Of a stretch of DNA of 64,000 nucleotides, positions 60,309 through 64,000 are shown in pieces (position 1 is the first letter of the stretch; every line of letters starts with the position of its first letter). The stretch covers positions 1,639,501-1,703,500 of the forward strand of contig NZ_CP048829.1 of the NCBI RefSeq assembly GCF_019355395.1, read 5' to 3'. The notes beneath the pieces were generated by a model that saw only the letters and a program-made list of their open reading frames with translations, was not told the DNA's origin and searched no databases. This DNA comes from Chordicoccus furentiruminis. Its GTDB lineage: Bacteria; Bacillota; Clostridia; Lachnospirales; Lachnospiraceae. The position numbers and the translations under genes were made by a program.

Positions 60309-60359
60309 GCTCCGGAAAACATAGAAAACCAACAGTCAATGCGAAGGAGGAACAATGCA

Positions 60360-61142
60360 ATGAAGAAACGCATGGTATCAGCAATACTTTGCGGCGTGAT
60401 GACGGCAGGGCTTCTGGCGGCGTCGGTTCCGGTGGGCGCGGCTTCATCGGCTGCGTCAGCGGAGAGCGCGGAGACGCCGGCGGTCGACTATTCGAAGGAT
60501 TCCGGCACGATCAATATGTTCATCTCGTCCCCTGAATACGCGGACGCGATTCAGCAGCTGATCTCGGAGTACGCGAAGGTGGCGCCGAATGTCACGATCA
60601 ACTATGAGACGACCCAGAACGATTATCCGACGATGCTGAAGGCAAAGATCAATTCCGGCGATATCCCGGATATTTTCTCTTCCACATCCGGCAAGGAAAT
60701 CGACACCTACATGGACTACTCCTATGATCTTTCGGATCAGCCGCTGATGGAGACGATCGATCCGGCGGTGGCGGACACGATGAAGTCGCTGAAGACCGGC
60801 AAGGGATGCTACGGCATCGCGATCAAGGGCAACTTCTTCGGAATTCTCTACAACAAGGACATCTTCGATCAGTGCGGCATCAAGGAGTTCCCGACGACGA
60901 CTTCCGCGATGAAGGATGCCTGCGAAAAGATTTCCGCCAAGGGAATCCAGCCATTCACCACCGGCTTCTCTGAATGGTGGGTGTTCAAGCACTGCTGGCA
61001 GCCGTTCCTTGACGCGGCGGCGGATCAGGCCGGCATCACCGCGGCGGAGCTCGTCCGGAAATTCGAGTCCGGCGAGGCGAAGGTCAAGGATTATCCGGAG
61101 CTTTACAATAATTTCGCTTCAATCACAAATCTTATGGGATAA
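60360..61142 (+). pseudogene. Sugar ABC binding protein gene truncated by ISL3
   Basis: The first 255 or so residues are a normal family 1 extracellular binding protein: signal peptide ending VPVGA-AS, then DSGTINMFISSPEYADAIQQL, YPTMLKAKINSGDIPDIFS and GIAIKGNFFGILYNKDIF. The frame then runs into ISL3 sequence and stops at 61140, where the family continues for about 170 more residues. The product would lack most of its second lobe and could not bind sugar. No lipobox cysteine is visible. AAGGAGGAAC precedes the ATG. Confidence 0.87.
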
Positions 61143-61499
61143 GGGGTTGCGAATATAACCCTTCCTGCTGGCGTCAAACAGCCTGAGGAAGAAATAATCG
61201 TCATCCGGAAGTCCGTAGGCCTGTCGCCGTAAGACTTTGATCTTGTTGTTGATGCCCTCCATCTTGCCAGAGGAGATTTTATAAGTTGCATGGGCTATGA
61301 TGCCCTCAAAGTGGTTTCCAAGGAGTCTTCCGAACCACTGAAGATGACTGTTTCCGGATGCACTGCAGGTATCCATGATCCAGGTGATGTCATCCGCCAT
61401 ACGGGCTTCATCAGTGCGGGTGTAGGAAAGAGACAGACGCTCCTTAATCAGATCAAGCGTGAACAGAAGCTTGTTCTGACTGAGAAGTTCGTCATATCT
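61119..61499 (-). pseudogene. ISL3 family transposase, C-terminal part
   Basis: On the minus strand this piece reads RYDELLSQNKLLFTLDLIKE, HFEGIIAHATYKISSGKMEG, INNKIKVLRRQAYGLPDDDY and RNPLSHKICD-stop, the end of an ISL3 DDE transposase. It continues in frame with the N-terminal part at 63152-64000 once the IS110 element is removed. The rejoined junction reads FEKRYDELL. The stop lies at the ISL3 end inside the broken sugar-binding gene. Confidence 0.9.
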
Positions 61500-61808
61500 A
61501 TTTTCCGCCTTTCTGGCGAAAGGCACCGATGGGGTCATGAAAATCGAGGTGCTTTCGCTCTTTCTACTATTCTCAATTCCTGATATCTTTTTCTTGCAGG
61601 GTCGGCACACTACAGAGCACGTGGAGGTGAGTGGCGGGGCGGTATAGCGGCCTACCTCGCATATCTATATGTTGCCGGTCATCCTTAAGGCATCAATGAA
61701 TGGCGCATCTCGTAGCCCGTAAACTTATCTCTTCCGAAGTTGTCTCGATTTCGCCGGATGACCAGTCACCGCCGCTCCTGCAACTACAAAATATCAGGAG
61801 GTGTTTTA
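61500..61808 (+). ncRNA. Candidate IS110 bridge RNA region
   Basis: This leader lacks a gene. ATATCTTTTT (61583-61592) is identical to the restored target site across the CT core. GCCTACCTC (61650-61658) is identical to the element's right end running into the core (63145-63153). They occur in the order target loop then donor loop, as in the known IS110 bridge RNA. CCTG-GCAGG type stems surround the first. The exact RNA ends and fold are not established. Confidence 0.6.
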
Positions 61809-63068
61809 TTGGCTTTTAAAATCTTTCGTTTTAACTGCTGTGGCCTTGATGTCCACAAGACCTGGATCTTTGCCTGCATTGGACTCACGGATGCAAACGG
61901 CCGGACAGAATATAAGGAAAAGATGTTTTCCTCTTTCTCCAGAGGTCTGCGGGATCTCGCCGCATGGCTCGCCTCTTACAACTGTACCGATGTATGCATG
62001 GAATCTGCCGGCAAGTACTGGATCCCGGTATTCAATGTCCTTGAAAAGACATGCAACGTGATACTTGCTCACCCTAAGTACACCAAACCACAAAAAGGGA
62101 ATAAGACCGACCGTAAGGACGCGAAGTGGATATGCGATCTGTTCATGTGCGACATGATCAAGCCTTCCTTTATCCCACCCGCCGAGATTCGTCATCTTCG
62201 GGATTTAGTGCGGTACCGGTTCAAACTCACCAACATGCTGACAGGTGAGAAGAACCGTGCACAGAATTGTCTGACTGTATCAAACCTCAAACTTGACGAT
62301 GTCTTCAGCGACGTGTTCGGGAAGTCTTCCAGATCGATTACGGAATACATCCTCGCCCATCCCGGTGAAACCTTTGATGTCACTCCTTTTGTGGATAGAA
62401 GATGCAAGACCCCAATTGAAGAAATCCAAGCCGCTGTTGACGGCGCTGTCTCTCCAGAACAGGCTATAAAGCTTCGTCAGTGTCTGGACCACATCGATGA
62501 GTTGGAAAAGCACAAGGCAGAAATGGAACGGGAAATCCTTCGCGTTTCTGATCCGTACCTTGACGCTCTCGAACTGATCCGCACTGTCCCCGGTTTCGAC
62601 AAAAACCCTTTTACGGCGATTCAGATTCTCTCTGAGATTGGCGGCGACATGTCTGTGTTCCCGACAGACAAACATCTTGTTTCCTGGGCAGGATGCTGTC
62701 CCCGTAACGATCAAAGCAATTTCAAGATCAAATCCACTCGGATTTCCCGTGCTGGTTCCTATCTTAAACCAGTTTTGGTGCAAGTTGCAAATGCTTTGAT
62801 CAAATCGAAGAAACATCCGGAGATCACAGAACGTTACCGCCGTATCAAATCCCACCGCGGGCACAAGAAAGCCATCATCGCTGTCTGCCGTATGCTCCTG
62901 ACCGCTATCTGGCACATACTGACAGATCTGAAGCCGTATACAGCTGAAGGGTATCTTGCTCCGCGGCCTGTGAAGACAGAAAAGATTCTCACTACTTCGC
63001 AGGCACTTAATCTGCTGAAGCTCAGAGGCTACGTCATCAAAGACGATCTGCCCGTCACTGCTTCCTGA
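61809..63068 (+). CDS. IS110 family transposase (second copy)
   Basis: This 419-residue transposase shows FNCCGLDVHKTWIFACIG (first Asp), VCMESAGKYWIPVFNVLEK (Glu) and NKTDRKDAKWICDLFMCDM (Asp pair). The C-terminal half holds IRTVPGFDKNPFTAIQILSEIGGDMSVFP and SWAGCCPRNDQSNFKIKSTRISRAGSYLK, which includes the catalytic serine region. TTG 61809 is used as the start: AGGAGG lies 8 bases upstream, while the 23 codons above belong to the non-coding leader. It looks intact. Confidence 0.92.
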   Translation: MAFKIFRFNCCGLDVHKTWIFACIGLTDANGRTEYKEKMFSSFSRGLRDLAAWLASYNCTDVCMESAGKYWIPVFNVLEKTCNVILAHPKYTKPQKGNKTDRKDAKWICDLFMCDMIKPSFIPPAEIRHLRDLVRYRFKLTNMLTGEKNRAQNCLTVSNLKLDDVFSDVFGKSSRSITEYILAHPGETFDVTPFVDRRCKTPIEEIQAAVDGAVSPEQAIKLRQCLDHIDELEKHKAEMEREILRVSDPYLDALELIRTVPGFDKNPFTAIQILSEIGGDMSVFPTDKHLVSWAGCCPRNDQSNFKIKSTRISRAGSYLKPVLVQVANALIKSKKHPEITERYRRIKSHRGHKKAIIAVCRMLLTAIWHILTDLKPYTAEGYLAPRPVKTEKILTTSQALNLLKLRGYVIKDDLPVTAS

Positions 63069-63151
63069 TTAGGTCGTGTCTATATTTGCTTTTCAAAGAC
63101 CCCTTGAGGGTTTGTTTGCTATGCCCTCTTTACGATATCTAACCGCCTACC

Positions 63152-64000
63152 TCTTTTTTCAAACTTTGCTTCATAACCCTCTTTCCGGACGTACTCTTCC
63201 TTGGGAAAGATGGAACCGGACCGGCTGATCGGCTCACCTGTCCTGGCTTGCGCATCTTTCGCCTGAAGCGTTGATCGACTTGACATCAGGATGTAACGGG
63301 TCTTTTTTAAAGCCCTTGCCTCCTCCATAAGGCCTTCCTCATACAGGCGGCGCTGCTCGTCCTTGCGGACTTCACTGACCACCTTGTCGTTGAAGTTCTT
63401 TACGATGTGGAAGTAATCGAACACCGGCTGTATCCAGGGGCATTTTTCCTCAAAAGCCTCCTGGAAATCGGAGTTCATGTCGCAGGCGACGGCCTCGACA
63501 GAGTCCATCCATTCCAGGCCGACATGGTCGATGAAGTCATAGACCACCTGCTTTTTCTTCCCATGGGAGATCCAGAGGATATGGCCGGTATCAAGATCTA
63601 TGATGTGGGTGGCATAGCGGTGGCCGTTGTGGAGCTTGAACTCATCAATGGCAAGCATTTTTGCCGGCTGCTCCGGTCTGATCAGTTTCGTGCCGTCGAT
63701 GGTATAGAGCTCCTTCAGGCGCTTAAGGTCTAAGGCTTTGACCGTGTTCTTTCCGAGCCCGGTGATCTCAGCTACCTGCTTGAGCGTGTAAGTGCCAAGT
63801 GCCAACAGATCCCTGGTATACTGGTACAGTTCCACAGATATCTGATGGCCGTCTGCTTTGAACGGAACAGACTGCATATGGGAATGTCCGCATTTGCAGA
63901 TGAGCTGCACGCGGTCAAAATGGATCGCACTGAGGCTTCCGCCAAAGCAAAGATGCCGGAGCGTAAGATCCCGGTGACCGTTGATGTGCATACGGCTTCC
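63152..64000 (-). pseudogene. ISL3 family transposase, N-terminal part (runs off the window)
   Basis: The minus-strand frame has the zinc finger LICKCGHSHMQ, a helix-turn-helix region YTLKQVAEITGLGKNTVKAL, and the first catalytic blocks of the DDE domain, MLAIDEFKLHNGHRYATHIID, VEAVACDMNSDFQEAF and PVFDYFHIVKNF. It breaks at the IS110 right end after EGYEAKFEKR, where the C-terminal part at 61119-61499 would continue. Its own start codon and the outer ISL3 end lie beyond the window. Confidence 0.9.

Follow-up and report, generated by a model that had tools for sequence, protein, structure and literature searches.

Where does an IS110-family element insert, and is the address carried by an RNA that the element itself encodes? 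This question is raised by a locus near the right-hand end of a 64,000-nucleotide stretch of the Chordicoccus furentiruminis genome (NZ_CP048829.1, positions 1,639,501 to 1,703,500; hereafter the window), in which an IS110-family element interrupts an ISL3-type transposase gene. The nested insertion, proposed in a preliminary description of this DNA, was borne out by Pfam domains and by comparison of copies in the genome. Sequence comparison makes it highly probable, in our view, that this is one member of an IS110 clade in which the bridge RNA of the left end has a fixed address, the translation-initiation sites of bacteria. The boundaries of the element, its target motif, the covariation of the guides on the 3′ sides of both RNA loops with target and donor, and the structure and strand of the RNA can be read from the sequences.

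The window's 3.27-Mb genome holds four copies of the element, 100% identical over the 1658 bases queried, and in all four position 63154 is followed by TTTTTCAAACTT; since this sequence is common to every copy, the bases past 63154 belong to the element. Seven ISL3 copies that lack the insert (one is truncated further on) have GTTCGTCATATCTTGCTTCATAACC at the site and CATATCTTGCTTCATAACC across it, and the true site in these copies is CATAT-CT-TGCTTC. The four copies and the seven insert-free ISL3 copies therefore place the element at 61500–63164 on the forward strand, with a left core CT (61498–61499) derived from the target and a right core TT (63165–63166) derived from the donor. The left target CATATCT (61493–61499; CAT, NN = AT and core CT) lies to the left of all four copies and is present in the insert-free ISL3 copies, and the right side of the target, starting with TGCTTC (63167–63172), continues as in the latter. 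The true right end of the element, TTTCAAAC with the donor core TT (63157–63166), is common to the four copies and widespread in relatives. The interrupted gene runs on the reverse strand, its 3′ part at 61119–61499 and its 5′ part at 63167–64000, where the window ends. Between occupied and insert-free ISL3 sites, the element and a 2-bp core are the only difference, so that a dinucleotide core is present with no further target duplication, as is characteristic of the IS110 family. The two junctions keep different cores, which fits an exchange of strands immediately past the core, the position that PMC11208158 gives for the top strands of IS621, and the circle junction is predicted to read TTTCAAAC-TT-ATTTTCC.

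The preliminary description had set the right boundary at 63154, about 11 bp short, and had taken the pre-insertion target to be CATATCTTTTTTC, which is contradicted by the reading of all seven insert-free ISL3 copies. A genome search with the 19-base empty site that it implied, allowing up to three mismatches, returned only the element's own four right ends. The apparent restoration of the ISL3 frame as FEKR-YDELL was a coincidence that made use of element bases, the real uninterrupted frame being GYEARYDELL.

With the boundaries corrected, a different target guide emerges: CATATCT at 61660–61666 (forward strand). It occupies the 3′ side of the target loop, would pair with the bottom strand of the target and covaries with insertion sites in relatives. 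These relatives comprised the best 80 of 119 genome-collection loci (68–92% identity) and 29 loci from a family search besides the window's own copy; in that search, 117 of 397 genomes had some match at E ≤ 0.001, many of them distant. From 113 loci, 15 below 65% identity were set aside and examined separately, and the other 98 gave 78 unique left junctions. All 78 carry CAT, 75 in the automatic register and three after correction of an ambiguous TATAT, the automatic register being 2 bases off in L066, L109 and L111. CAT is the complement of the start codon ATG. At the matching place the RNA reads [C/U]AU-NN-N-U, with a consensus guide of CAU-NN-YU. For the NN dinucleotide and the first core base, RNA and target agreed at 203 of 225 bases, with 62 of 75 junctions perfect, compared to a mean of 77.9 and a maximum of 106 in 20,000 shuffles of the guides; after register correction, 210 of 225 bases over 75 junctions were equal and 64 of 75 junctions were perfect. 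When each of the 24 distinct guides was represented by one locus, 68.2 of 72 bases were equal; shuffles gave 20.8 on average and 41 at most.

This covariation bears directly on the possibility that the recombinase protein itself recognises start-codon regions, the RNA matches reflecting shared ancestry only. The fixed CAT and the GGAGG side of the RNA are indeed too invariant to reveal pairing, as such protein recognition would allow; however, over 24 guide variants the target's NN and core base change along with the RNA, also in pairs of similar proteins with different guides, and RNA guidance has been published for IS621 (PMC11208160), which leaves recognition by the protein very improbable.

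The insertion sites themselves point to gene starts. In element orientation, the four copies in the window's genome sit at CATATCT followed by GTCTCCTTC, GCTCTTCCT, CACCTCGCG and TGCTTCATA. Three of these sites are complementary to a region running from a Shine-Dalgarno sequence to an ATG and lie immediately ahead of hisS, a gene for a family 2 glycosyltransferase and an open reading frame (ORF) of 81 codons, the last without a match in a Pfam scan; the fourth, inside the ISL3 gene of the window (AAGCAAGATATG), is a look-alike of a translation start. Among 75 junctions with enough flanking sequence, the reading frame from the ATG was open for at least 60 codons in 55. Ten downstream proteins were scanned against Pfam, nine of which have a domain, and in seven of the ten a domain starts within the first ten residues (examples are histidyl-tRNA synthetase at 10–332, PEP-utilisers N at 5–126 and GFO_IDH_MocA at 2–117); domains that begin so close to residue 1 support these ATGs as true start codons.

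The other side of the target has a corresponding character. Over 65 sites the right flank is C/T-rich, with a CCTCC peak four to eight bases past the core, and G is absent at positions 4–6. Sixty-one of 65 insertions match AAGGAGGTG over 4 nt or more; in a background drawn from 400 kb of the window's genome, this holds for 69 of 158 ATG sites resembling gene starts and for 176 of 949 non-gene ATG sites. Conserved in the RNA on the 5′ side of the loop, opposite the target guide, is GGAGGUGAG, the natural partner of the CCTCC-like flank, and this 5′ side likely pairs with that side of the DNA target; in the window the proposed Shine-Dalgarno-side guide is GGAGGTGAG (61623–61631, forward strand, read as top strand), which is complementary to the CCTCC-like right flank with a one-base register shift and weak covariation.

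A translation-start pattern of this kind could also arise by selection, if the RNA read CATNNYT only, with insertions inside genes being lost and those ahead of genes surviving. Shine-Dalgarno sequences do stand at natural gene starts, the C of CAT is kept in targets even when the RNA has U, and the GGAGG side covaries weakly, all as selection would have it. Nevertheless, we regard this explanation as unlikely: all 47 insertions at ORFs of at least 60 codons have a Shine-Dalgarno-like side, compared to 69 of 158 gene-start-like background sites, and such a side is still present in 8 of 11 insertions at ORFs of fewer than 20 codons, against a background of 18.5% (p = 1.3e-4; five of the eight come from two genomes). 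Moreover, only 2 of 30 AGATATG sites in the 400 kb of the window's genome combine a long ORF with a Shine-Dalgarno sequence.

The second guide of the RNA was identified by its agreement with the element's own end. The donor guide AAACTTAT (61721–61728, forward strand) occupies the 3′ side of the donor loop, and its first six bases, AAACUU (61721–61726), are identical to the element's right end in 85 of the 86 loci that could be read, compared to a mean of 61.6 and a maximum of 70 in shuffles, the remaining 24 of 110 loci being unreadable on one or both sides. Seven variants contribute to this agreement (AAACTT in 72 loci, AATCTT in five, ACACTT in three, ACTCTT in two, and AACCTT, AACCTA and ACCCTT in one each), and the sole mismatch is L144, with AAACTT against AAATTT. 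Covariation of a donor loop with the element ends, expected of a bridge RNA, is thus seen for one identified side of the loop.

Both guides lie in a structured domain of 176 nt (61601–61776, forward strand). The 59 distinct leaders of the relatives align as a strongly conserved RNA with two variable spots, and 44 of them were used in the structural alignment, on which 97.7% of cells are paired, compared to at most 41.8% for slid versions, a comparison in which the structure is favoured because it was built with RNAalifold and a column scan from the same alignment. Seventeen of 39 pairs changed on both sides, in 131 cells against 40.7 in shuffles, and these compensatory changes fall mostly in the closing helix, the outer helix of the target loop and the donor-loop stem. 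The inner hairpin of the target loop (61634–61660, with 61634–61639 pairing with 61655–61660), also with 97.7% of cells paired, changes via G-U pairs or losses only, and its variation via G-U pairs on the forward strand fits transcription from that strand. A structured RNA with a target loop covarying with insertion sites, as in bridge RNAs, is accordingly present; a search of 61400–61900 with Rfam covariance models gave no match at E ≤ 1. Ahead of the RNA stands an extended −10-like box, TGATATCTT (61581–61589, forward strand), with the pattern TGnTAnnnT in 53 of 56 leaders, compared to 4.05 expected from shuffles; this conservation makes it likely that the box is an internal promoter of the RNA.

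The recombinase gene follows at 61809–63068 on the forward strand, encoding 419 amino acids from a TTG start. The protein carries DEDD_Tnp_IS110 (PF01548, 5.5e-23) and Transposase_20 (PF02371, 1e-16), the DEDD RuvC-like and C-terminal Tnp domains of the IS110 family. From the start of the element to the TTG there are 309 bp, and 96 bp follow the stop codon, giving the long RNA-bearing left end of the IS110 group; on the features that could be tested, the element is a member of the IS110 family.

Corrected in this way, the view that the leader encodes a bridge RNA with its target guide 5′ of its donor guide, already put forward in the preliminary description, is very probably right. The guides it had named, ATATCTTTTT at 61583–61592 for the target and GCCTACCTC at 61650–61658 for the donor, do exist as strings at these positions, but both are wrong because the right boundary was wrong. 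Insert-free copies show a different target; a 7-base similarity of ATATCTTTTT to the site (ATATCTT) is real, and its remaining T's are bases of the element, the T-run being element sequence in all four copies. The right-end copy of GCCTACCTC (63145–63153) stops 11 bp inside the true end. Folding, suggested as a check on whether both strings are presented in loops, places ATATCTTTTT, which overlaps the −10-like box, within one arm of a predicted 29-nt stem, and GCCTACCTC partly in a stem, with 4 of its 9 bases in the counted helix and 6 of 9 in the RNAalifold consensus, in part within the inner hairpin of the target loop. A second suggested check, whether other copies with the same leader sit at unrelated sites, favours the guide as corrected, since each of the other three identical copies lies at CATATCT. 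We therefore give the original pair of guides, with CATATCTTTTTTC as their target, practically no credence, and the case warns that IS110 boundaries deduced from one locus may mislead.

The guide relation extends to more distant elements. Among the 15 loci set aside, with 40–56% identity, the RNA anchor was found in 14, of which 12 repeat the guide in the left end, as CAT followed by four matching bases. Searches at class and phylum level yielded 46 new loci, 24 of them with the anchor, and 16 of these 24 showed the match, compared to 2.2 on average and 7 at most in 2,000 shuffles; in this test CAT was required by the pattern and the four following bases were tested, and the first hit in L221 is probably spurious. 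Matches at E ≤ 1e-60 occurred in 15 of the 391 genomes searched at class level and in 49 of the 398 searched at phylum level, the window's own being counted in each, and many of the weaker matches may represent other subgroups.

Several results weigh against a bridge RNA addressed to translation starts. On the Shine-Dalgarno side, the 5′-side guide fits best when shifted by one base (a mean of 3.83 of 9 matches, compared to 3.15 unshifted), and over 77 loci no shift gave significant covariation (280 against 271.8 at +1, with 637 of 5,000 shuffles as good), while one locus for each of 20 guides gave a weak signal, 74.9 against 64.8, with a fraction of 0.043 at a single shift out of four tried. 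Of the four low Shine-Dalgarno scores, one is false, the right flank of L099 having been taken from a second, wrong site, and the ATG background represents one genome. On the start-codon side, in 24 of 78 junctions the first guide base of the RNA is U (CGUAU), and all 24 targets keep C (for example L068, L106, L130–L137 and L170), so that plain Watson-Crick pairing does not explain how this base is read; selection for start codons, wobble or contact with the protein could account for the discrepancy. Folded as a single sequence, the leader is unremarkable (z −1.33, with 8 of 100 shuffles folding equally well), and the structure consequently rests on the alignment. No partner was found on the 5′ side of the donor loop. 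Eight of the 24 scored new loci lacked the match and 22 of the 46 were unscored, several of them distant or truncated. Finally, the loci are not independent, many sharing a genome or being closely related.

Taking these points into account, we favour the following mechanism. The RNA would be made from the left end, bind the recombinase and direct recombination. The 3′ side of its target loop, CAU-NN-YU, would supply CAU as a fixed complement of the start codon, with NN and the first core base varying between elements, and the GGAGG-bearing 5′ side (GGAGGUGAG) would pair with the CCTCC-like side of the DNA target, the complement of a Shine-Dalgarno sequence. In the second loop, AAACUUAU would pair with the two element ends as they are joined in the circle, and the recombinase would exchange strands at the dinucleotide core, so that the element would land between the Shine-Dalgarno sequence and the ATG with its left end toward the gene. 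In the window, the element used the look-alike site AAGCAAGATATG inside the ISL3 gene. The left end possibly re-supplies a Shine-Dalgarno sequence to the gene, as a 4–5 nt match to one is present in 29 of 35 distinct leaders derived from the left end, where it lies in a palindromic stretch that could fold.

This arrangement resembles IS621 of the IS110 group, as presented in PMC11208160 and PMC11208158, in the DEDD and Tnp domains of the recombinase, the long left end with RNA, the order of target loop before donor loop, the inclusion of the core dinucleotide in the guides and the size of the RNA (a structured domain of 176 nt here, compared to an RNA of 177 nt in IS621). The guide layout differs. 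In IS621, LDG precedes RDG, and the left donor is the element's right end (PMC11208158), whereas the covarying bottom-strand guides here lie on the 3′ side of both loops (alignment columns 105–111 and 169–176), so that the element does not follow the IS621 layout. According to the same accounts, IS621 has CT cores at both ends, uses a promoter formed at the circle junction and targets REP elements; here the target core is CT, TT, GT or AT and the donor core mostly TT, the −10-like box is conserved inside the left end, and the targets are start-codon regions. Among the seekRNAs of IS1111, those tested, as given in PMC11187229, carry the top-strand match first, with the bottom-strand match 3′ of it, unlike ISEc21, and the order that we propose resembles IS1111. 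In contrast to IS1111 elements, in which the RNA is located in the right end and subterminal inverted repeats are present (PMC11208160), the RNA here precedes the recombinase gene, within the left end, and no inverted repeats of at least 9 bp were found between the element ends, the IS1111 range being 7–17 bp and shorter repeats not having been searched. Targeting of start codons or Shine-Dalgarno sequences was not reported among the titles and abstract openings listed in literature searches on the topic; the term "start codon" has no occurrence in PMC11208160 and one in PMC11187229, on another matter.

Further observations concern the RNA and the distribution of related elements. In the leaders of relatives, a second hypervariable spot lies between GCGCA and AGCCCG of the otherwise conserved RNA (61706–61712 in the window). 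This spot, in the apical loop after GGCGC, does not follow the right target flank, the best z of 2.6 among 120 comparisons over 63 loci being attributed to chance. Among 42 genomes of the genus, a close element was found in the window's genome only, the best in the other 41 having 43% identity, and far closer relatives, with up to 92% identity, are found in differently named records, a distribution that suggests horizontal transfer. Two metagenomic viral contigs (L193 and L194) contain the conserved RNA core, and a plasmid scan for this core gave one record.

Other IS110-like sequences are present in the same genome. A second IS110 element, with 37% amino-acid identity, occurs in nine copies (L013–L021) within about 81 kb (genome positions 383719–464000), flanked by a different motif, approximately TTGCTAT on the left, indicating another target. 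Pieces of a third, distant IS110-like gene (about 30–36% identity) lie at 565–897 and 1336–1623 of the window, with a second copy near 1.979 Mb, and a short remnant of a relative (L005 / L022, genome positions 2959968–2960108) matches at 85% over 106 bases of DNA and at 66% over about 47 protein residues. Next to the ISL3 gene, an ORF at 60339–61142 of the window, probably an ABC sugar-binding protein as named by eye, follows two permease-like ORFs and seems to be cut where ISL3 begins.

Beyond this genome, we think it probable, with less assurance than for the clade itself, that a Bacillota-wide IS110 clade exists in which the two target guides together mimic a translation-initiation region, a near-universal address that would spare coding regions, with drift confined to NN and the first core base and with the guide sides reversed in both loops relative to IS621. 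If true, a lineage of RNA-guided recombinases would have adopted as its target a functional signal shared by most bacterial genes, in place of a particular repeat. Its many elements, differing mainly at a few guide bases and each with matching sites, would amount to natural retargeting experiments, and a second guide layout, with reversed sides, RNA in the left end and a TT donor core, would bear on the divergence of IS110 and IS1111 and on the engineering of bridge recombinases.
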